DNA of 64,000 nt. It comes from Porogramme epimiltina. Its lineage: Eukaryota; Basidiomycota; Agaricomycetes; Polyporales; Polyporaceae. The position numbers and the translations under genes are program-made. The first letter of the stretch is position 1. Every line of letters starts with the position of its first letter. The DNA lies in NCBI GenBank assembly GCA_900155495.1, contig FTLJ01000382.1, forward strand, positions 38,380-102,379, given 5' to 3'. The notes beneath the pieces were generated by a model. The model did no database searches, was not told the DNA's origin, and saw only the letters and a program-made list of their open reading frames with translations. Positions 8,593 through 63,290 of this stretch are shown in pieces.

Positions 8593-10180
8593 TCACCACC
8601 GCGTGATGTCCGCCTCGGCCTCCCCAAACATGCTCGTCTTCTTGATCGAGAAGTCGCCCCCGGCATCCGTGGCGTCCCCTTCCTGGAGCGTGTAGTACTC
8701 CGGGAACTCCGCGCGCAGGTAGCGCAGGATGTGCGCGTTGATGAGCTCGAACTCGAGCAGGAACCCGTCGTGGCCCTCCGGGCTCGGGATCATCACAAGC
8801 GCCGCGCCGGGGATGCCCGCCGCGATCTCGCGCTGCTCCGCGGGCATGAACAGGCCGTCGGACTGGATGCCGATCACGAGCGCGCGCGGCGGCTCCGTCG
8901 CGAGCACGCGCGCGAGCGCCGCGTCCTCGCCCTCGCCTTCGCCCTCGCCCGCGAGGAGCCGCCCGCGGGCGACGTCGTGCGTGTCGAGCTTGCGCGTGAT
9001 GTGGATGTAGCAGTTCGCGTCGAAGCGCGCCGTGAACTTGTCGCCCTGGTAGCGCAGGTACGACTGCGCGGAGAAGATCGGCGGGCGCGGGGCGAGGGGC
9101 GCAGCCGCGGACGCGGACGCAGGCGACGTCGGGCGCTCGGCCGAGCTTGAGCTCGCGTCCGCGCTGCTCGGAGCGGCGGCGGGGGTGGGGGTGGGGAGCG
9201 CGCTGGACCTGGGGGTGGAGGGGCGCGACTGCGCGGCGCGCAGGCCGTCGTTGTGCGCGGCGAGCGTGTGGTCCGCGGAAGGAAGCGCGGGGCTCTGCGG
9301 CGGCGTGAGCACGGCGTCCTCGCCGGTCGCAGCGCTGGGGGGCACGGCAGGCCGCTGGGGCTTGCGGCCGAAGCGGCGCTCGAACGAGTCGCGCGAGCGG
9401 TAGGTGAGCAGCGCGGCCATGCGCGCGGCGGCGAGGCCGGACGCGGGCTGTGCCTCGTAGTAGCCGTCTTCGTAGGACGGATCGGAGTAGATGCTCTGCC
9501 GTTGTGCTTCTCCCCAGCTGATGCACCAGGCGGAGTGGCGCGCGGAAGTCGCAATGGGGACGATGCGTCGGACGAAGCCCGGAGGGGAGCAGAGCGGCCA
9601 CTCGAGGACGGCCATGCCGCCCATGGAGCCGCCAATGACGACGGCGACGGAGTTTACACCGAGGTAGTCGAGAACAAGTTTGTGGATTCTGATTAAAAAA
9701 AGTGTTGTGTTAGACGATGCGGTCGAGTATTGGGAATAGGAATCTGCGACTGTACCGGACGTCATCACGGATGGTTGTCAGAGGAAATTCGGGGCCATAC
9801 GGCCGTCCTGTGTCCGGATTGAGCGTCACAGGGGAAGCCGAGCCGTATGGGGACCCCAGGACGTTGGCGCAAAAGATGAAAAAGCGGTTGGCATCGAACA
9901 CCTTTCCGCGCCCCATGAGGGGTCCCCACCTATGGGATAGGGTGAGCAATGATCGGGGAAGGCGAAAAAAAAACACGGCGAGCGGCAGGACCCACCAGTC
10001 CTCGACATCTGAACTGCCGGTGAAGGCGTGGCAGATAATCATAACATTGTCTCTTGATTCATTAAGGGTTCCCCACGTCTTGTACGCAACGGGGACATCC
10101 TTGAGGACGAAGCCGGACTCTAGAGTAAAAGACGGTACGGTAAAGATATTCTGGTCTATGAGATCGGTGTACAAGGACAT
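8593..10180 (-). CDS. MET2: homoserine O-acetyltransferase
   Basis: The enzyme acetylates L-homoserine with acetyl-CoA, feeding homocysteine and methionine synthesis. Exons (minus strand) are 9996-10180, 9756-9929 and 8593-9688, giving 484 residues. It is an alpha/beta-hydrolase fold protein of the MetX/Met2 type. The nucleophile elbow GGSMGG has the serine at 141, the acid is in QSDGLF near residue 397, and the histidine is in EGHDGF near 426. The N-terminal region (HAFTGSSDVEDWWGP, SPYGS) matches Met2 and fixes both splice sites (donors GTGGGT and GTACAG). Roughly residues 200-300 form an Ala/Pro/Ser-rich low-complexity insertion, after which the conserved fold resumes at SAQSYLRYQG. The gene is divergent from the SDR at 10613, with 432 bases between the start codons. 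MET2 is the yeast name for this function. Confidence 0.93.
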
Positions 10181-10612
10181 CAGGGGCAAGCGGGGGTGGT
10201 GGGAGAGGGCAGGCAAGAGAGAGAGGCCGCCCGAGGTCGCTGACCGGGGCTGGACGGGCTTCGAATGGCGCAATGCGGGCGATGTGTGAATTCGCAGAGG
10301 CAAGGCGGAGGGCGACGGGTGGGGTCGACGCTCGTCCGCGGCGGCGCGTTGAGTCAGATCGGGGCCCGATGCGATCGCCAGGGAGAGCCGGGTGGCGGGA
10401 GCCGGCGTCCGGGCTGGCCGAGGGCCACAGTCGCCGGGCGGGGGCGGGCGCACGAGCGCAGTGCGCGGCGGCGCGAGTATGCCCTCACCCCGCTCGCCCC
10501 GCCGTCCTTCTCTCCAGTGCTCGTCTCTCACTCGTCCGCAGAGGGTCCCCATCGGAAGGCCCGCTGCGCGCAGACCCTCTCGCCGCCCAGGCACACACCC
10601 GCACACGCGACA
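10181..10612. promoter_or_regulatory. shared divergent promoter of MET2 and the short-chain dehydrogenase
   Basis: The two start codons (10180 minus, 10613 plus) point away from each other across 432 GC-rich bases. No TATA element is obvious. ORFs that cross this region are shadows of GC-rich DNA. Confidence 0.5.
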
Positions 10613-11850
10613 ATGGACACCCTTTCCTCGATTTTCTCCGTGGAGGCCGCACGGAAGAGCCCCTCTGTCGTCACCATCGCCGCCCTCGCCACTGCGCTCC
10701 TCGTCGCCCGCCGCGCTTGGCACACCCGCCGCCGCCGCACCCGGACTTTGCCCCCCAATGAGGAGCGCGTCCTCGTCCTCGGTGCATCGAGCGGCATCGG
10801 ACAGGCCATCGCCCACGAATATGCCGCACGGGGCGCGCGTGTATGCGTAGTGGGTCGCCGTGAGCGCGAACTGGATGCCGTCGCCGACGAGTGCAGGGCC
10901 CTCTGTCCGAACGCGACCGGAGGGCCCCAATTGACCGACGATATTTTCGCATTCCGGGGTGATTTCACCCGTGCGGAAGACATGGTGGCGTTGCGCGAGG
11001 ACCTGCAGAAGCGTGAGTCTCCAGCATCCAATATCCCGCAATTGCCACAGTGCTTTGATCGCAACGGATGATATTTCGACTTCCTCCAGGTTGGGGAGGT
11101 CTGGACACGTTGATTGTATGCGCCGGAGTGTCCGCGCTCCGCCCCCTCCTCGAAGTCGCTGGCCTCGAGCGGCACGACGGTGCCTTCTCTCCCTCTCAAG
11201 TCACCACCGAAGGCGTCACGCACGCAGTGGGCGTCGCTGAGGCCGCGATGCAAGGCAACTTCTTCGGACCGCTCGTGTCCGCAATCACCTTCGTGCGTGC
11301 TTTGCTCCGCCCGCCCCACCCTACCCCATCACTACTACCACTATCGCTATCACCACAACTACCGTCATTGCTACCACCCCGCGCGCACGTGTGACCCCCC
11401 GCTCATCCACCCCCGCGCCCCGCCCAGATCCCCCTCCTGACCGCGTCCTCGCGCGCGCCCGCAATCTGCCAGCTCTCCTCGCTCGCCGCGCTCTGCCCCG
11501 CGCCGACGCGCAGCCTCTACGCCTCCACCAAGGCCGCGTCGCTCCTGCTCTACCAGGCGCTCGCGATCGAGCACCCGCGCGTCGCGTTCACCGCCGTGCT
11601 CCCGAGCACCGTCGAGGGCGGCTTCCGCGCGTCCGCCGTCGACGGCGGGCCCGTGCGCGAGGCCGATCCCAACAAGCACGGCCTCAAGCGTGCCGCGGTC
11701 GCGCGCGCTGCCGTCGCCGGGATCGACGCGAGCGCGAAGAACGTGTACGTGCCGTACGCGATGGTCCGCGTCGCCCACTTTGGCTACTGGCTCTGGCCCC
11801 GCCTCCTCGAGCGGCTCGCCGCCAGGAAGTACAACTACGGCGCGGAATGA
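10613..11850 (+). CDS. membrane-anchored short-chain dehydrogenase/reductase
   Basis: Exons are 10613-11012, 11090-11292 and 11428-11850, giving 341 residues. A hydrophobic segment at about 18-33 followed by an Arg-rich stretch suggests an N-terminal membrane anchor with the catalytic domain on the cytosolic side. The cofactor motif LGASSGIG is at 57-63 and the catalytic YASTK at 232-236. The preceding serine is in the ICQLSS region, and an NAG-like position reads CAG (VCAGVS). This is a classical SDR of NAD(P)H-dependent type. Resemblance in layout to 3-ketodihydrosphingosine reductase and 11-beta-HSD-like ER enzymes is possible, but the substrate cannot be assigned. All introns have usable GT-AG sites (GTGAGT, GTGCGT). 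Confidence 0.85.
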
Positions 11851-27930: not shown

Positions 27931-29172
27931 TTATTGCTCCTTGCCCAGCGCGGCCTTTTGCTTCTTCGCCTCGGCGGCCTTGACCTCAAGGAGCGGGTCG
28001 AGCTCGGACTTGGGCTGCCTGTACGAGTTGCCCATGCGGTCCGCCCACGTAAAGTACTACAAGGAGAGGCGAGCGTCAGTGTCCGAGCATCAATCAAGAC
28101 GAAACGAACCGCCGCGCGGTTCGGCGGCGTCGGACGCGCGGACACGTACCTGGCCGTAGTTCACGGTGAAGTAGAGGTGGTGCAGGGTGTGGTGCGCGGG
28201 GCCGTTGATGACCGTCTCCAGCGGGTGGCCGGTGATCATATCCGAGTCGTGGATGAGGATCGACCAGAAGTTCACGAAGACGAACAGGCCGAGGTATACG
28301 TGGCGCTGGAGCGGGAAGAGGAAGATGAAGAGGTGGTAGGGCACGGACTGCAGGTAGCCGTCGAGCGGGTGGAACGCGTGCGACGCGAAGGGCGTCGGGA
28401 CTATGAAGGCGGGATGTCAGTTTTCGGCGCGGAATGCGGCACGCGAGTGGTGACTCACTCAGCCACTTGTGGTGCGGCTTGTGCAGCCATTTGTAGCAGA
28501 TGGGGTGGTGCTCCCAGCGGTGGACCCAGTAGATGCAGTAGTCCGTGAAGACCAGGAAGCTACGCGGCCGGTTAGCTCACCATGGCAGCGCATTCGTGGC
28601 AAACGCTGCACTCACAACGCGACGGAGAAGAAGAGGTACGCCCAGCCGTACTCCTCAATGTCGTTGTAGAGGTAGGAGTGCCCACGGACCTCGGCCACGA
28701 ACCAGGGAAGGGTGTAGATGGTCATCATGGGGAACGCCTTGAGACTGGACTGGATCTCGAGCTTGACCTGGTTTTTGAGGAAGCGGGGGTGCTTCATCAT
28801 CTCGTGGTTGAAGATGTACCTGTATGAGAGGCCGGCGAAAAGGAAGTACATGACGTGGATGCCGACGAGGGTGAGGGTGAGGAGAGAGATGATCTGGCGG
28901 GGCATGTATTCGCGCGGCCATGCGGAGACGGCTTTTTCGGAGGCGAGGAGCGGGGCGGTGAGAACGTCCGCGGGGAGGGGCGGGTGGGGGATGTAGGCTA
29001 TGAGCTGGGACCAGGCGGAGGGCTGGGAGGCGGGAACGGCGGCGACGTGAGAAGAGGCATTGTATAGGCCGGCGGCATTTGCGGACACGGTCTTGAACGC
29101 GGAGGCGGGAAGAAGCGCGGCCCATGCCCTGTCGAGGACGTAGTGGTCCGCGACGCTGAGGAGGAGATCCAT
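27931..29172 (-). CDS. ERG3: delta(7)-sterol C-5 desaturase
   Basis: This ER membrane di-iron enzyme introduces the C-5 double bond in ergosterol synthesis. Exons (minus) are 28616-29172, 28459-28559, 28150-28400 and 27931-28056, giving 344 residues. It carries the fatty acid hydroxylase histidine boxes HRWEHH (from 199), HKPHH (from 212) and HHTLHH near residue 285, and the conserved [15 protein letters not shown] and YGQYFTWADR stretches. Several hydrophobic segments flank the boxes. The C-terminus is Lys-rich ([13 protein letters not shown]), compatible with ER retention. The start is the first ATG in frame. A TATAAG-like element lies about 140 bases upstream on the minus strand. Confidence 0.95.
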
Positions 29173-30781
29173 GGCGGGTGCGGCGCGCGGGGGGCTGCGT
29201 GCGGGATGGGTCCGAGGGACAGACGGAGGCGGCGGCGGAAGCAGCGGCTTGGGCGGAGGCGTCCGAGGCGGCGACGAGGAGGAGGAGGCCCGGGGCTGGC
29301 CCGAGAGCTTATATTCCAGGCGCGCGTTCGGCGCGCGTCTCCAAAGTCGTTCCACCCTCCGAATTTTGCCCCCATGTGATCTGATAAGATGCCCCCGCCC
29401 CCATCTTGGCGCCCGTTCGGTCTCGTCGGTCCCGACGCGAGGCGCGTCCCCGGCCAAGTGGCAAGTGCTGGGCTCCCCCGCCAGGCCCAGGTCCGCACCC
29501 TCGCGGTCTCTAGGCCCTGCGCGTAGAGCCCCCCACCAGCTCCTACCCCGCACTGACGCTGCGGGGCGTCCGCGGGCCCCAGCGCCCCCCGCACGCCAAC
29601 GAAAGTCGAACGACTCACCCGTATATTCCGCACCCGCCACCGTCGTCGCGCTCGCCTCGACCTCGCCCAGCGGTGCCCCGGCGGGCCCAACCCACCCCAG
29701 AGCCCGCGAGGGCCCCGCGCTGTCATCACGCCCCCGTCATGGATCAACCCTCGTATCACCACCCCCATTCACCGCCGCGGATAAGGATGTCCACGACGGA
29801 CACGGCACGTACGTGCGTCGGCTGCCCTAGCTGCTGACCCACCGCCGGCCCACCGCGGCTCCCCGCACAGGGCGTCTCGTCTTCGGGCCCGTCGTGGTCC
29901 CGCAGTGTGGGCCCACTCGCACACTCTCCGTTGTGCGGGGTCGCTCTTGGCCGCGAACGCCCGTTAGGGAACGAGTTTCTCAACGCGCAGGGGTGCAGGA
30001 CAAGCGGGCCAGGGTCGTGGTGGGAGGAGAGTATGCGTGGGGCCATCGTCCGGTGCGAACGGCCAGACGGCTCCTTCCGGAAAGGCCCTGGCCCAGTGCA
30101 AGCGGCCGAGCTGCACATAAATATGTCATGGGACGTTCAACGACGCCCGGCGAGGCCGCTGTGTTCTGCAACTCGTTGTCTGAATAGTGCGTAGTGAACG
30201 TTATCGAAAAAGGACCGACTTCGCTGACTTACTGCATAGGCTCGGTGCGACGCGGAAGACACTGCGGCGCTGTTCCTACGGTTCTGTCGCCAGCGGTTAC
30301 TGGCCATGATCTCACTACCACCTCATCGCCATGTCATCGATATATTTCTCTCCGTCCTCTCTGGTCCTGCAGCACTTCGGGTGTGTCGGGTACTCAGGGG
30401 ATACCAGTGTGCCCGAGGCGACCACACTATCAACTCGCCGCCGGAGGGGACACACCACAGGCAGCGACGCTAGGAGGAAGCAGGGGGGAGACGGGGACCT
30501 CGCCTCCACCTCCCCGCGGGACTGCGCGTAAATTATACCCCCTCCCTCCCGGCCGTCCTCCGTCGGCGCGCGCAAACGCCTCAGAATCCCGCGGGGCGGC
30601 CAAAGTGGCTCTTACGTGCCAAGTCGCCGCTTCTGCTCTTGTCAGCCGCCGCACCGTCGTTCATACGAAGTCCATATCCGCGGTAATATACAGACACCCT
30701 CCCTCTTATATCCGTTCAGCCAAGCAGACCGCCCCAGCCTATATGCCTCTCTCAGATTCCTGCTTCTTTCATTCGCCCCAT
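29173..30781. other. intergenic, ERG3 promoter and 3' flank of the iminopeptidase
   Basis: About 1.6 kb with no supportable gene. The longer frames (29171-29830, 30194-30826) lack domains and run over GC-rich promoter sequence. Confidence 0.45.
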
Positions 30782-39023: not shown

Positions 39024-41144
39024 TCAGCGCTTCATTCTCCCGTCAATGATCGTGTCGGGCCATGAGACCGTGTAGTTCGCGAAGCAGTCGTACTCGAAGT
39101 CGATCTCCGCAATCCGCTCCTTCAGGCCCTCCACGAAGTTCTCTACCGCGCAAAGCCCGTCCTTGTCCTCCGCACAATGGGCAACGCCGGTGAGGGGAAC
39201 CACACCGTCGTTGAGGAGGAAGCGGATGAAGGAGCCGGACTTCTTTCCCTCGCGCGCGGGGCAGGACATGACTTGTCCAACGAGATTGGCACCGAAAGGC
39301 GCAATATGCGAACTCATGTATGTCTGTGCGACAATCAGCGTCCTGTACAGCGATTTCATGCGTTCAAAACCTACCTGGCCCTTTTGAATGTGATCCACGG
39401 GAAGCGGTCCTGCTGCGGCCATAGAAGTGAAGTTTAAGGCGACCACGACTGTCAAAACAGAGATTAGATGTTGATCATAAGGAACCCATTCGCGCGTCTG
39501 CTTAGCTAAACTTACTCGTTGAGATGACGGTGTCGTGCGTCGCATCCACGAATATTGGCTGGGATAGAGGGAACGTGACGTTGCTAGCATCAAGAGTTTG
39601 GTTGACCGGCGTCGCAGTGAAGTTGGTGAGCGGAGTTTGAGTCAGACGTGCAAGGAGCTCCTGAGCGTATCCAAGTCCTTGCGCCGCAGCCGCAGGGTTT
39701 CCAGGACCGTTTCCGTACCAGAAATCGAGATCTGGCGAAAACGTTAACATCCCATTGACGGAACGCGTATGGGATGGACTGCTTACCATTGGCGTACTCG
39801 TAGCCCTTCCACTCTTCCTCTGTGAAGAGGTCGCAGAATACCGAGTACCCGAGAGCAACAGTCTCGTAGGAGCACAGCTGCTGCATGGCGAACGCGGTCG
39901 ACTGATCGATCTCAACGCCCTTGATATACTTTTGAAGGCGGGACGCTGCATCCTTAAGGTAGATCTGCGTCCAGTTCGAGGAAGCTTCAGAGCCAAGGCT
40001 CGAGATTTCGTTGTTGGCATTGGGGCATGGCTCCCAAGGATTGAGGGAGCTCCAAAAGCCACTGTCCTCGATAGCGATCACCTGGTGATAAGAGGACTGA
40101 TATTGCTGGACACCGAAGAAACCCGCGGCAAAGTGGAGCCTGTCATAGGACAACAAGGTACTGTTGAGGAACACAACTAGGGAAGAGAAGCATGATGGAC
40201 TTACGCAGAGTCGACCATACGAGCTACATAATAATGACATACATTAGCACATATCATGAATTTGCAAACGAAATAAAGACCTTCGGATGTAGTGCGGAAG
40301 ACCGGGAGGTCCGTGAACCCTTTCAGCAAGTGTCCATACTTCACCCTGAAGGCAATTCCCAAATCGAACCTGTAATACTAGTCTATCAGACACGTCACGT
40401 TCCAATGCGTATATTTGGTCTCTTATCACTTACAGCTGCTCCCGGCCAAAGGGGGTAAGCAATTCCGCACCCAGGTTGTACGTCCAGGTGTTCAAGAATT
40501 CGAGTGGCCCAGAAGCCTTGAAGCCGGCCGAAGAAGTCGCGGCAGCATGGACCTTTGCTGCGAAGCTAGCAGGGGCTGATCCCGAGGTGGGGTAGCGCGC
40601 GCCGTGCCGGTGCAGAAGGTGCACCTGCGTGAGCTCGCAGCCCGAGGGCACAATCTGCGACGCATCGCGCAAGCCGAACGCGCTGCTGTCCACAGAAAAC
40701 CACGGGCTGAGGTTTCCCCAGGACCGGACGAGGTCGAATGCGGAAGAGGACGCCACTGATGACGTCACATTTTGCACCGGAACCTGCAGCGACTCCGAGG
40801 AGTCGGATGCCACGAGCGGGTAAACGTCCTGTCTGAGGGGCGCTACGGGGGCAGTTTGGACGACCCAGGCCTCATCTCCAGCTAGAGGGATACGTAGTGA
40901 ACGTCAATGGGGCGACACACGCACGATGGAGGTTGAACGCACTAGGAGTGGGGCCAGCATGGCCAACCTGCGACGCGTCAGGGAAAAAGGTGTTTATGGA
41001 CGTGTCGGTCGCGTTCGGAGGGGGAAACACGGCGCTGACAGTCGAGCCGGCGAAGGTGGACGCGCTGTCGGCACTGGAACGCGGGACTGCGGCGACGAGG
41101 GACGCCGCGGAGAGCGCGCAGAGGAGACGGCTAGCGACAGTCAT
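39024..41144 (-). CDS. secreted histidine acid phosphatase (phytase-like), copy C
   Basis: This is the third paralogue, in tandem with copy B. Exons (minus): 40943-41144, 40434-40881, 40281-40369, 40205-40223, 39787-40139, 39516-39731, 39375-39448 and 39024-39323, giving 566 residues. It has a signal peptide, RHGARYP, a THDTVI-type HD motif (ATHDTVIST) and the same eight-exon structure with identical phases and identical lengths for exons 3, 4, 7 and 8. Exon 2 is slightly longer than in A and B (448 nt) owing to a Ser/Val-rich linker after the signal region. The donor of intron 3 is GTCTTT, poorer than the consensus. A CATAAATA element about 65 bases upstream matches copy A. Confidence 0.9.
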
Positions 41145-41752: not shown

Positions 41753-44700
41753 TTAAACGTACAGCCATTTGCCTCGGACAGAGGCCCACTTCGACAATTC
41801 CTCAGTGCTGACGCCCTCGAACCGCGCGCGAATCGACCTGGGGAGCGCCCCGCCCTCTCGGTTGGGGTCGGGCGTCATCGGTGGTGAGAGCAGGGTCGTC
41901 TCGCCGTCGTCGTCTTCAAATACGATATCGTCGTACGGCGAAAGGATACCCAGGCCGGATCCGCCTACGGCGGTCACGTAGGGCTGGAAGCTTTCGGCCT
42001 CCAGTGCTGCGATCAGCGCCTTCAAGCTGTCGTCGTGGAAGTCTGTACACGAGGAACACTGTCAGGGTGCTGGTGCACGTTCGTAAGGATGAAACAACTG
42101 ACCGTCAGGGACCAGGGTGACAGCACACCCGCCGCCTCCCGCGCCAGTGAGCTTCGTGCTCAAACTGAAAGGGGCTTCGGCGGTCTTCGCGCGAATGGCT
42201 TCCAGGGACGGGTGGGAGACCCCCATCGAGGCAAGGTGGGCGTGATTCTCGTCGATGAGTGCCTAAAATAACAGCTCGTCAGGCACACAGCGTATCGCAA
42301 ACTTTCCATAAAACATACCGAGAGGCCCGATAGCAGAACTTCTCTCGGAACGTCCGGATCTGCCAGCGCCCGCCTCGCCTCGTCACTGATTGCCTGGATC
42401 GCGTCGAGGAGCTTCTGCACGGCCTCGGGCTCTTCTGCCTTCTTCCGCGCAACGCCCGCCACGAGCGCCTTTGTGTCCCGCGGCACCTTCGAGTCCACAA
42501 GCAGGAAGCGCAACGACTTGAAACCTTGAATCTGGTCCATCCCGCTGCGCTTCCCGAAGCCGGGGCGCACATACGCGAGCGCGCCGCCGAAGACCGCCAC
42601 CGAGTTGTCCACCCCGGACGGGTTTCCGTGGAGAACCTTCTCCGCGACGAACGCCCACCGGTTTGTCTCGTCGGCGATGTCTGGGGGGATCGCGCGCCGA
42701 CCACCGTGCGAGACGTGTACATGTCCGGGCTCACCGGGACCGGGCTCGCGTGACGGGGGAGGTACTGAGGGGAGCTCGATGCGGCCATGGAGAATGAGCA
42801 TAGCTGTCGCGATGCAGACAGAGAAGGACGCTGAGGAGCCAAGGCCTGCACCAATGGGAAGGGTGGAACGGCAGACGAAGTGGAACGCAGGCCTAAGGTG
42901 AACCTGTAAGCTAGGTTCGCTAGATCATAGTGGTATAATATCACTTGCCTGTAAGTGCCGTAGGCCATGGTCATGTAGAGGTAAAGGAACGCGACGGCAG
43001 CTGACTGAGTCTTCGGAGGCATTTCCGACTCTGGTGGAAGTGCCCTAGACTTGATCGCATCCACGAGTCGGTGATCAAGTGAATCGGGGTGGTTTTCGCC
43101 CTTCGGAATGGAAACGACTGCATCCCACGGCAGCTCGTCTATATCCCACTCGTATCTGTAGTTGCTGATGTCCGTGAAATGGACAGACAACTTGTTGTCG
43201 TAACGTGGCGAAGTAAGACCGTAGCACCGGAGGTCCACTGAGGCGGCCACGGCCGTCTACAAAAACAGTAAATATCCATCCAGACCATGAGTTATGAAGT
43301 CACTCACAACTCCGTGCACGACTGCGTGCTCGCCGAACAGGATGACTTTGCCAGGTGCACTGACGAACCACTCCCGGTTTGCCCGTTGACGAGCAGTCTG
43401 GGCCTCCCCAAAAGCGAGCTTCTCAACTGCCCGGCTGATGGGGTTAGGGATGCGGACGTAGTCGTTCGCCGCGAAGGTAATGGCCCCAGCCTGCATCAAG
43501 GCGTGGCGGAGATCGTCAAGCAAGTCTGCCGGGTCTTCGATGCCGACACACAGGCGGATGAGATCCTCAGGAAGACCACGCGCGGCGCGAGTGGCAGGGT
43601 CGATCGAGGCATGCCTAGTAGCAGTGGCAGCTTAATTAGCATGAAGAGGTGAGGGGGAAAACATAGCACTCACGACATCACGCAGGGCATGCTGATCAAA
43701 CTGTTGACACAGCCGAAGCTGACGCTGATACCCCAGAGGCGTGTGGCTGCGACGATGCGCTCGCTCAACTCCTTGTCGCCCGTCTCGAAGGAAAGAACGG
43801 CGCCGTATCCTATGAAGGTACATTCGTGAATACGTGGACGGTCTCACCGTAGTACGAATACTCTTACCATCTGAGATACGGTCGTGGATATCCTTGCCAG
43901 GGTGGGTGGGCAAGCCGGGGTAATGCGTGACAAAGCCAAGCTTCGAGAGCATCTGCGCGACTAGCATAGCAGTAGACTGTTGACGGTCCATGCGGATAGC
44001 GAGTGTCTTCGTGCCTCGAAGGAGAAGGAAAGAGTCAAACGGCGTGAGGGCATTGCCCACAGCATTGATAGTGAATGCGATGTCCTGCAAGAATCGCTTA
44101 TACCTGAGCCGGTGACAAGTAGCGCAGACCGCAAGCAGCACGCACCTTCGCAACGTCGTCACGGTTGCACGTAATGACGCCAGCCATGAGGTCGTGGTGC
44201 CCGCTAAGGTACTTGGTCGCGCTGTCGTACACGATATCCGCGCCGTGCTCGAGCGGGCGCTGGAGGTACGGGCTCATCATCGTGTTGTCGACGACGATGA
44301 GCGCGTCCTCACACTTCTCCTTGACGAGCGCGCTAATGCGCGCCATGTCGACGATCTTCAGGAGCGGGTTCGTCGGCGTCTCGAGGAGGACCATCGCGGT
44401 CTTGCCAGGGTTCAGGAAGGGCACGACCGACTCGGCCTTAGTCGTGTCGACATGGTGGACGGTCACGCCCATGTGCCCGCGGAGATAAGTGAGCAGGCGG
44501 TTCGTGCCGCCGTAGAGGTCGTCTCCTGCGATGACCTCGACGCCGGGCTTGAGGAGACGGGTGATGACATCGAGCGCGGCCATGCCGCTGGACACGGCAA
44601 ACGCATGCTGCGCCGACGAGATCTTTGCGATGTGGTGCTCTGCAAGTCTAATGTCAGAAATCGTATCACAACTCTCCAGACGGCGGGTGTGGGTGCGCCA

Positions 44701-45150
44701 GCGCTTAAATGCCGACGGCCCCCTAGCAGAGTCATTATTTAAATCAAGGTGTGGGGAAGCCCGCCGCATCGATGCCGCATGCACGCGAACAAAGTTGCAG
44801 CTTGCGGAAATTCCACAGTCATCCGGAGAAATGAGAAGAAGCCCCCTCGAGTCCGCATCCTCCTGTTCTGCGCGTGAAGCTAATGACGGCTTACCTAGGT
44901 GAGACCTGGTGGGGTTCCCACTCCGGGTGTAGTCATATTTCTTCCCAACGCCCTTGAACGTCGCCGTCTGGTAGATCGGCACACTCGAGCTGCCGTGCTG
45001 GTCCGAGTGGTCCGCATCGGGAGAGTCCACAGTCGCGCAGAGCGTTGAGAAGCGGTAGGGCTGCCTCTGCAGGCTCATGGAAGGGGTGTCGGGCTCCGGG
45101 GTAGGGAGATCGGGGGTGGGCGCCTGCTTCACGGAGCTGGTCGCCGCCAT
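41753..45150 (-). CDS. predicted bifunctional fusion: cystathionine beta-lyase :: mevalonate kinase
   Basis: Nine exons (minus): 44895-45150, 44146-44639, 43868-44084, 43674-43809, 43308-43614, 42949-43256, 42319-42892, 42103-42262 and 41753-42042. They form one frame of 2742 nt and 913 residues. Residues 1 to about 412 are a Cys/Met-metabolism PLP enzyme: YDYTRSGNPTR, AFAVSSGMAALD, the PLP lysine K228 in YDSATKYLSGHHD, and the family C-terminus GIEDPADLLDDLRHAL. Residues about 413-448 are a linker. From about 449 a GHMP kinase begins (FVSAPGKVILFGEHAVVHG), with LPIGAGLGSSAS, PSGVDNSVAVFGG and KLTGAGGGGCAV, matching mevalonate kinase. Exon 5 (43308-43614) carries the end of the lyase, the linker and the start of the kinase with no stop codon. 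The only in-frame ATG before the kinase is M408, inside the lyase C-terminal helix. The lyase could instead be the related gamma-lyase/synthase. Intron 6 has a GC donor (GCAAGT). Confidence 0.85.
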
Positions 45151-45977
45151 CGTTGGTGCGCGGGTTCAGGGACGGGACAAGGTCGTAGATGGGCAAGGGG
45201 GTGGTAAGAGAACGAGTTTATATGCTGCCAGACGAGCACGGACGGCGTCAGGCGAGCTTTTGGTTTTTCGCAAGTCTGAGTCGGTCGAGCCATGCACAAT
45301 ATCCCCGCATCACGTGCGGCCCGATGGCGCGATATTGGTGCAAGCGCCCGCTCTCTCCCACAGAGTGGCATCGGCCGCCGCGTTTCATCCCGTATTCGGC
45401 CGCCGCAGAACATAACGAACATAGCTCGGGGTCTAGGAGCCGGTCCGTGCTTTCAGAGAGGTCACGCCAGGTACGGGGTGGAAAAAATACATTGACTGAC
45501 GTCGTCTAGATGGTGGAAGAGTTCATAGCAGTAAAACCGTGGGGGACGTCGAGAGAGGACTAGGAAGCTACAGTGATGGGACACCATGGGTGAGCTGCAA
45601 GGGTGAACAATATATGATACGATGGTGACGACAGTGATGCAAGGATTAGAGGCCGGGTAGGTAGGGACAATGGCAGGCGCCGATGTCGGAACACTATGCG
45701 ATGAGTATGAGACGGAATGAGCATGCGTGGCGAGAGATGTAGGGACGAGAAGAGGAGCAACAGGAGTCAGGACGTTGGCAGAGAGGATGAGAGAGGAGAA
45801 ATGTATGCGACAATATGCAGTAGGCCTGTGTGCGACCCGCGACGACCTGGATATAAGCACGGACACGACGGGGAAGATGTTGAAGAAACTGGATGCAACG
45901 AAATGCGGCAGCGTGCGAGGAGGCGGTATTCCAAGATATCATACATAGGCGCTGTACGTAGAGCGATTTGATGGCGG
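45151..45977. other. intergenic, fusion-gene promoter and 3' flank of the histidine kinase
   Basis: About 0.8 kb with only overlapping short frames. It should hold the promoter of the minus-strand fusion gene. No clear TATA box was recognised. Confidence 0.45.
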
Positions 45978-48900
45978 TCATGACACCCCTAGTTTTTGGA
46001 ACATGGAGTCTAGCGTCTTGAACGCGACAGGCTTGACGAGGCTGTGCGGTGCTTATCAGAAGAAGTCGAGACACAAGACCCCGAGAAGGACTCACTATCC
46101 GTCAACGCCGGCCTCGAACGCCCGACGCTTGTCTTCGAGCGACGACATCCCCGTCAACGCGAGGATACGGCTGGGGTGTGACCGGGAGCTGTTTTCGTTC
46201 CTGCGCAAGGACTCGATCTGTCGCATCTGCGTCGTAGCGCCTACGCCATCTAAAATCGGCATCGATAAATCCAAAAGCACAACGCTGCCGGGTCGTACGT
46301 ATCAGCGACAGTACCCCGCAACGAAGACGACGACGACGCCGGCGAAGAGATCAGACTCACTCGAAGTAACCATCCGTCTCGAAAGTCCGCACGCCTTCTA
46401 GCCCGTCCACGGCCTCGCGGTACTCATATCCCTGCGACAATCGCCCCATTAGCCCCGCCCCGGCCCCGGCCTAACGCACGGTGTGTGTGAAGAACGAAAG
46501 AGCACCCACCATATTCCGAAGCCACTTGACACTGCAAATTTGAATCACCGCCAGGTCAGCCCGGCCCGCACACATAAAAAGGGGGCGCAGCGGCCCCCGC
46601 ACCAGAGAGAGAGAGAACCACACACTCACAGCAGGTTCCGCAGGATGCTGTTGTCCTCCACCACCAACACCCGCAGCGGCCCCTCGGGCTCGACCGTCCC
46701 CACCGACGTCCGCAGGAGCGTCCCGCCCGTGCCGACCGAGATCGTCGGGCCCGTCGGCGTCTGCCCCAGCTGCCGCGCGTCCGCCGCCCCCGAGTCCGAC
46801 GCGTCCCCCTCCTCCCCCTCCGCCGTCGACGGCATCTGCGTCCAGCTCGTCAGCGGGTGCGCCGTCGCCGCGCGCCGACCCAGCCCCGGCCGCTGCGGGT
46901 AGCCGCGCGCGGCCCTGCCGTTCCCCGCCACCACCCCCACCGCGTCCGCAGGCGGCCCGTCCGCCTCCGCCGAGTACCGCCGCGCGATCGGCGAGGTCTC
47001 GGGGCGGTCGAACGACGCCGCGCGCGACGGGCTGTCGGGGCGCGGGCTGCCCGTGCCGTTCGCGGCGGCGAGCGCGCTCGCGCGGGTCGCGACGCTCTTC
47101 CCGATGTTGAGCGCGTGCAGGGAGAGCTTGAGCGCGGCGACGAGGCGGCACGGCCCGACGGGCTTGTACACGATCCGGCAGAACCCGCCGATGCCCTCGT
47201 ACTCGTTCACGACCGCCATCAGGCGCGGGTCGCCCCGCGCCGCGGAGAGCACGACGAACGGCCGCGCCGCGTCCTTGCGCTCGATCGCGCGCGTCACCGG
47301 CGTCGGGTCCTCGTTGACGATCGCGATCGCGCCGCTCTCCTCGTCCGCGGCGAGCGGGAAGCCCCAGTCCTCGACGAGGTACTGCGTGAGCACCTTGCGC
47401 AGGAACTGCACCCCGCGCACGGACTCGTCGAACGCGAGCAGGGACACCGTCGGGCGCGGGCCGTGCTCGAGCACCCTGGCGAGGTCCGCGGAGAACGAGG
47501 GCAGCTCGCCGGGGCTCTCCACCACCTCCGCGTCGAATGTGACCTTAATTTCCGTCCCAAGGCCCTCCGCACTCCAGACGTCGACCTTGCCGTCCACGCC
47601 GGGGGAGCGGACGATGCTGTTGACAATGGCGAGGCCGAGCCCGGTCCCTGTCTGGAGCGGGTTCTCCTGCGAAAACGGGTGGAAGAGCTGGTTCTAAAGT
47701 TCAATCAGACGGCGTCAGCTCGCGACTCAGGGGCGTTCCCCGGCACCCGCCGCACCTTGAGGAAATGCTGGCTGATCCCCTGCAAAAAAGAAGGGAAAAA
47801 AAGGTTAGGCTCGTCATCGGCGGACAAACTCTCGATCGCGCGCCGCCGCACCTTGCCCGTGTCAATCACCGACAGTTCTATCCTCACCTTCCCCGGCGGA
47901 GTGTCGCTCGCGGGAGGCAGCTGCCGCAGGATTACGTGTACGTACCCGTCCTGCGTTTGGGGGGGGATCGATCAACCTCCAGTCCGCGACCGCGCCGCGC
48001 AGGCGTTTTCGCGCGCACTCACCGATGTGAACTTGAGGCTGTTCCCGAACACGTTCATGAGGATGCGCCGGATGCCGCCCTTCTCACACCGCAGCGTCCA
48101 GCCCTGGGGGTTCCATGTAAGCTTACCGCGCTTCTCGCGCGCGAACCGGCCCCTCGAGAGAAGAGGGTCCACACATACAGCCTCGCTATGTCCGATCTCT
48201 ATCACGGTCTCGACATGTTTGTTTGGGTGCGGCAACACGACCGACCCCTGACGGTCGGGCTTCGGCGGCGAATACACGCTCCCGATCTCGCTCGTGAACA
48301 TGCGGGCACGGTGGCCAATCCAACAGCCTTCTGTTGCCTCCTCCACGAGCTGCATAAGGTTGACCCTGGAGGAGAGAAAGCGTGCCTGTCAGATAGGGGT
48401 CACAAAATAGATGTAGGCACGGGTGCACTGACTTGCTGAGGTTGATGACGTTCTCGACGCCCCCCGCCTTCGAATTCCCGCTCAGCTTCGTAAAGTCTAA
48501 TACGTGATTGACCGTCTCGACTAGCGACGTCCCACACGCCTGGACTGTCTGCAGGAAGGAAGCCTGGCTGTGATTAAGGGACGTCTCGGACAGCAGCTCT
48601 GCCGACGCAAGAATCTAGATAGATACGTGGTTAAGAATAACCCCCCACGGGAGCAATCTGTCAAACTCACGCCATGAAGTGGAGTCCGGAGCTCGTGCGA
48701 GATGCTATAGGTGGCAGTTAGACCTGGGAGCGCCACACAGAGAAGATTGGACTCGCTTGGAGATGAAGAGACTTTTAGCCTTGTCCGCGAGGACCATGCG
48801 CCGCTTGAGCACGGCCGACAGGATGATGACGCCTAGCGAGATGTCAGCATTTCAATATGAGCTCTGTCATCGGGCCCGCGAACGGCCACTCACCAATTGC

Positions 48901-63258: not shown

Positions 63259-63290
<32 letters not shown>

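Follow-up and report, generated by a model that had tools for sequence, protein, structure and literature searches.

The stretch of DNA that we analysed (hereafter the window: 64,000 nucleotides of contig FTLJ01000382.1 of the polypore Porogramme epimiltina) carries a gene which is, with high probability, this fungus's version of the basidiomycete metC-MVK (STR3-ERG12) fusion: a predicted bifunctional enzyme, made from one mRNA, with a cystathionine beta-lyase at its N-terminus and a mevalonate kinase at its C-terminus. Cystathionine beta-lyase is a PLP-dependent enzyme that splits cystathionine into homocysteine, pyruvate and ammonia; mevalonate kinase phosphorylates mevalonate with ATP. The fusion of these two enzymes is already known: basidiomycetes widely share it, and its first descriptions date from 2012.

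The gene lies on the minus strand, and its nine exons (Table 1) splice into 2742 nt that end in TAA and encode 913 residues with a predicted mass of 98.4 kDa. Spliced translation thereby reproduces the coordinates, the number of exons and the length given in a preliminary description of this DNA, which had also anticipated a protein of about 100 kDa. The eight introns measure, in order, 255, 61, 58, 59, 51, 56, 56 and 60 nt (656 in total), with GT-AG ends in seven of them and GC-AG in intron 6. This predicted splice model is drawn from splice signals and from homologues: the nearest proteins among the matches listed, those of Epithele typhae, Lentinus tigrinus and Lentinus brumalis, are 86% identical over 100% of the query, and the nine-exon frame is therefore no chance frame. 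Intron 1 stands apart as being far longer than the other introns of the gene and open in frame; by computation its retention would give a protein of 998 residues, with the 85 extra ones inside the lyase.

Table 1. Positions in the window of the parts of the fusion gene and of neighbouring features
Feature	Position	Strand	Basis or remark
Whole fusion coding span	41753..45150	-	spliced translation and full-length homologues
Exons 1-4	45150-44895, 44639-44146, 44084-43868, 43809-43674	-	spliced translation
Exon 5	43614-43308	-	spliced translation
Exons 6-9	43256-42949, 42892-42319, 42262-42103, 42042-41753	-	spliced translation
Exons 1-5: N-terminal extension, cystathionine beta-lyase, linker, first kinase motif	43308..45150	-	translation and profiles
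Exons 6-9: bulk of mevalonate kinase, Pfam GHMP N and C matches	41753..43256	-	translation and profiles
Intron 1, 255 nt	44640..44894	-	multiple of three, no in-frame stop
Intron 5, 51 nt, phase 0	43257..43307	-	directly after kinase residues ...GEHAVVHGV
Intron 6, GC-AG	42893..42948	-	splice ends
Homoserine O-acetyltransferase (MET2/MetX) exons	8593-11200	-	TIGR01392 in two frames
Exons with fatty-acid-hydroxylase-type histidine motifs	28090-29736	-	PF04116, 42.5 bits
Exon with histidine phosphatase branch 2 match	40430-40903	-	PF00328, 39.3 bits
Probable hybrid histidine kinase exons	46095-47693	-	HATPase_c, 27.8 bits

Each half can be assigned by profile. In the lyase half the Pfam domain Cys_Met_Meta_PP covers residues 48-407, and TIGR01329, the profile of eukaryotic cystathionine beta-lyase, matches residues 48-411 with 524.1 bits, above its curated equivalog cut-off of 487.5; the nearest solved structure by sequence is the Arabidopsis cystathionine beta-lyase 1ibj (351 bits). 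In the kinase half GHMP_kinases_N and GHMP_kinases_C cover residues 568-609 and 762-822, TIGR00549 (mevalonate kinase) scores 211.8 bits against a curated equivalog cut-off of 163.05, and the nearest solved structure is the mevalonate kinase 1kvk (213 bits). The names that the preliminary description had given to the two halves, cystathionine beta-lyase and mevalonate kinase, accordingly hold at the level of these cut-offs.

Conservation was read from an alignment of 150 fusions, composed of the window gene, 120 listed matches to the whole frame and 29 rows hand-picked from 116 new records of a search with the kinase half. The PLP lysine K228, together with Y128, D203, S225, T227 and R388, is unchanged in all 150, while Y74 and R76 of the lyase active site are kept in 146, the other four having gaps; the roles given to these eight residues are those of the family. 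K457 of the kinase is likewise kept in 150/150; for S593, E657 and D668 the number is 149, the single exception in each case being a gap in the gene model P0032 or P0202. We take these four positions to be K13, S146, E193 and D204 of the rat enzyme (placed by the 1kvk alignment), which presumably act as catalytic Lys, Mg-binding Ser and Glu, and catalytic Asp. The kinase further contains an extra segment of 37 residues (613-649), a possible counterpart of the 16-residue insertion described in PMC3342255; the corresponding lengths are 15 residues in Sporobolomyces (one row), 17 in Malassezia (two rows) and 22 in Rhodotorula (one row), and an H.GR[RH]A[IL] motif is carried by 105 of the 150 rows.

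The preliminary description had considered this fusion possibly undescribed, a view that two papers of 2012 overturn (PMC3342255; PMC3468542). The first, on the Ganoderma lucidum genome, named the fusion metC-MVK and, in the text available, reports it from 12 basidiomycetes, Laccaria bicolor not being one of them, as their only mevalonate kinase homologue, with an average length of about 886 residues and a 16-residue insertion in the kinase of 7 fungi (PMC3342255). The protein reported here comes from a different species and has the same domain order in a single chain of 913 residues, which fits the metC-MVK pattern of about 880-930 residues with the lyase N-terminal and the kinase C-terminal. 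The second, in its available text, describes basidiomycete orthologues of STR3 whose C-terminus is extended by about 450 residues resembling a mevalonate kinase, present in all basidiomycetes examined but Postia placenta, with no stand-alone kinase and with a kinase equally distant from those of ascomycetes, animals and plants (PMC3468542). In contrast to the exception made there, the Postia placenta record among our matches (P0017, 909 residues) has both domains, and the exception may therefore have been a matter of gene models. Later papers present the same fusion again (PMC4129116; PMC3720577): GME67_g of Lignosus rhinocerotis, a different species that likewise belongs to the Polyporales, has the same two domains in the same order and a nearly equal length of 918 residues (PMC4129116). 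In Umbelopsis sp. PMI_123, unlike in the fungus studied here, two separate proteins, a lyase (P0262, 416 residues) and a kinase (P0234, 426 residues), are each homologous to one half of the fusion. Among the papers surveyed, mostly at the level of titles and abstract openings, we recognised no functional test of the fusion. Many of the 120 listed fusion records bear the name cystathionine beta-lyase, and the fusion can thus hide a mevalonate kinase from pathway annotation; in Ustilago maydis, according to the part of the source available, mevalonate kinase is the one enzyme without a KEGG prediction (PMC7396576).

The search with the whole frame scored 7996 candidate proteins and gave 570 matches; candidates had to measure between 0.55 and 1.75 times the query, a range that excludes stand-alone enzymes. 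The 120 of these that are listed measure 818-952 residues; the lyase domain is present in every one and at least one kinase Pfam domain in all but P0032. Their named sources are Agaricomycetes. The same two-domain order in other Agaricomycetes, for which the preliminary description had suggested looking, is thus found in the 120 listed of 570 matches, each of these database entries being in turn a gene model. When the kinase half served as query, further fusions from Sporobolomyces, Rhodotorula, Rhodosporidiobolus and Malassezia were listed. Of the 116 new records of that search (P0121-P0236), 53 have fewer than 700 residues, and the kinase start motif is present in 21 of the 53. Twenty of these 21 were rejected as stand-alone kinases, fusion linker or lyase sequence preceding the motif when read by eye; the only true start of the stand-alone type is that of Umbelopsis P0234, outside the basidiomycetes. 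That reading covered the motif-bearing records; the other 32 short ones include two that bear the name mevalonate kinase, P0164 from Inonotus and P0235 from Rhizoctonia. Short lyase records, Vanrija P0258 and Austropuccinia P0324 among them, were rejected as stand-alone lyases, linker or kinase pieces being present in them. Three stretches of viral contigs fitted a pattern, and none of the three encodes a relative.

Stand-alone copies of either enzyme, a check that the preliminary description had proposed, were sought in this genome exon by exon in six frames: neither a second mevalonate kinase nor a second close cystathionine beta-lyase was found, in a search that by its exon-wise nature is incomplete. 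Phosphomevalonate kinase is absent from the same exon-wise screen, so that failure to find a stand-alone mevalonate kinase is no proof of absence. With E up to 10 the kinase half has five matches in the genome. Four of these belong to the fusion gene itself, and the remaining one (C419) is a galactokinase-like open piece, a fragment scoring 111.6 bits, below cut-off. Other GHMP loci are a homoserine kinase (C695) and a diphosphomevalonate decarboxylase (C411), both above their cut-offs. The lyase half has 15 matches, five being its own exons and ten others. For the best of the others (C91, 42% identity) gamma-type models score 288 bits against 226 for the beta-lyase model, with all scores below cut-off and the piece a fragment; pieces on C251, C295, C320 and C788 carry no class assignment. 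An exon piece on C171 is O-acetylhomoserine-sulfhydrylase-like (178.6 bits to TIGR01326, below cut-off), and this putative locus suggests a second route to homocysteine that would bypass the lyase.

As a bifunctional fusion enzyme, the protein would have both halves active, and the lyase and kinase reactions would run independently of each other, with one promoter and one protein level serving both usual reactions. The fusion would have been fixed in an early basidiomycete ancestor and would then have been kept because its kinase half, having no start codon of its own, came to depend on the lyase promoter. No benefit of the fusion shows in the data. If it is the sole source of both activities, enzymes of ergosterol and methionine synthesis could not be separately lost or regulated in mushrooms and their relatives.

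The preliminary description had gone further, proposing that the fusion couples methionine synthesis with isoprenoid supply and so fixes their ratio; such a coupling or channelling of flux we regard as unlikely. It is established that sterol C-24 methylation consumes S-adenosylmethionine, and in Ganoderma lingzhi a mevalonate kinase gene is reported to be a target of SREBP, its expression being raised on SREBP overexpression (PMC9810662, from the text available). The Ganoderma records among the listed matches (P0004, P0005, P0006, P0008 and P0010) are fusions, so that the SREBP target is probably the fusion gene too, and its lyase would rise along with the kinase. This would be the best, if indirect, support for a coupling of methionine and sterol synthesis. 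Both halves may plausibly be regulated together, with the sterol regulator SREBP as one candidate. On the other hand, the two reactions have by established biochemistry no common intermediate, a fixed ratio of proteins does not thereby fix a flux, the C171 locus points to homocysteine synthesis without the lyase, and no test of such coupling was recognised in the literature, again mostly at the level of titles and abstract openings. A confident arrangement of the domains is also lacking from the structure predicted for the relative P0001 with a hand-picked 50-row alignment (pLDDT 79.2, pTM 0.54): as modelled, it leaves the mutual placement of the lyase and kinase halves unfixed. The best 50 Foldseek matches to this model are all lyase-type PLP enzymes (TM by target length 0.80-0.84, rmsd 6.1-8.3), and the list hence says nothing on the kinase half.

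Splicing offers another way of setting the two activities. Intron 5 follows directly upon the kinase residues GEHAVVHGV, and its retention would, by computation, end translation at the TAG within the intron's acceptor, leaving 486 residues with the whole lyase and almost no kinase, so that splicing could set the amount of kinase made per lyase. A search with the lyase half gave 119 records, 15 of which extend as far as the kinase motif GEHAVVHG. In nine of the 15 the match to the kinase breaks off immediately behind ...HAVVHGV, namely in P0238 of Pleurotus ostreatoroseus, P0258 of Vanrija humicola and seven more (P0241, P0242, P0245, P0247, P0255, P0257 and P0337); from nine frames diverging at the same codon the position of intron 5 appears to be old. 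Genomic frames, however, end at any intron, and hence speak to the position of an intron and not to its retention in mRNA; the remaining six records (P0237, P0239, P0240, P0244, P0246 and P0256) continue into spliced kinase sequence. Moreover, retention of any of introns 2-8 shortens the protein, and introns 6, 7 and 8 also spare the lyase, so that intron 5 is distinctive only in leaving almost no kinase. We consider such a switch improbable. Less probable still is the compound idea that in basidiomycetes the fusion puts methionine synthesis under sterol control, with splicing of the conserved intron yielding the lyase alone when isoprenoids are plentiful; were it true, either ratio of the two enzymes could be obtained from one gene.

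The preliminary description had placed the join within exon 5 and both enzymes in a single frame, and both statements are borne out: there is neither a stop nor an intron between the domains, and the 913-residue spliced frame has full-length homologues. Within this exon the lyase ends with ...GIEDPADLLDDL, 49 residues follow, and the kinase starts with SAPGKVILFGEHAVV. The 49 residues separate L403 from the kinase motif SAPGK (S453) and contain a single in-frame Met, M408, beyond which the lyase profile TIGR01329 extends, up to residue 411. Across the aligned fusions the linker is 39-80 residues long (median 47), and its mean agreement with the window protein is 0.46, a value that rises to 0.81 in the lyase and 0.66 in the kinase. 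Position 420 of the linker is nonetheless Y or F in 134 of the 150 rows, R422 is kept in 143, and most rows have an AVEKL-like stretch; in the P0001 model this stretch is a low-confidence helix with a pLDDT of about 48. No conserved start codon ahead of the kinase was found in the 150 aligned fusions. Across 149 relatives, identity to the window protein in the lyase half correlates with that in the kinase half (r 0.89), as expected if the two were inherited together.

Five contigs of only 2883-2922 bases (P0004, P0030, P0060, P0085 and P0116) contain a complete frame of 900-919 residues and have 146-201 bases left over, as against 656 intron bases in the window gene, from which we infer that they resemble spliced transcripts; three further short contigs (P0047, P0064 and P0104) with 280-424 spare bases are less telling. 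In Pleurocybella porrigens the fusion is present, according to the text available, in a unigene, that is, a contig assembled from mycelial transcriptome reads (PMC3720577). Evidence for a single transcript thus comes from these short contigs with the whole frame and from the published mRNA assembly, while the linker's conservation, the scatter of its Met residues and the rarity of M408 favour, at the level of sequence, one polypeptide. That the two domains are instead made separately, from an internal promoter or start for the kinase, with the open frame of exon 5 incidental, is thus very improbable: M408 does lie upstream of the kinase motif and some Met occurs in the linker region of 44/150 fusions, but M408 is Met in just four of the 150, the window gene included, the other linker Mets lie at scattered positions, and the spliced-looking contigs and the published assembly cover both halves.

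The DNA around the fusion gene offers several further observations. Upstream of its start codon, by 160 bases, lies a TCACGTG at 45310, which we take to be a Cbf1-type word; the window has 5 copies against 10.5 expected, and this one upstream copy therefore says little. The SREBP motif GRVGRVGRVGR (PMC9810662) occurs 228 times in the window against 33.7 expected, and is thus useless as a test of SREBP control. The exons of the methionine-pathway enzyme homoserine O-acetyltransferase lie roughly 32 kb from the fusion and match TIGR01392 with 263 and 142 bits, below the whole-protein cut-off; a second MetX-like locus is on C872. The N-terminal part of the product of the exons with fatty-acid-hydroxylase-type histidine motifs resembles, as we would assign it, C-5 sterol desaturase (ERG3); counting the MET2 exons and the fusion too, genes of methionine and of sterol synthesis would fall within about 37 kb. 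A long run of G occupies 63259-63279 and nearby positions, close to unresolved assembly bases. The exon with the histidine phosphatase match adjoins the 3' end of the fusion gene. For the probable hybrid histidine kinase, the frame neighbouring the HATPase_c match contains a DLSMPILDG stretch, which we take to be receiver-like.
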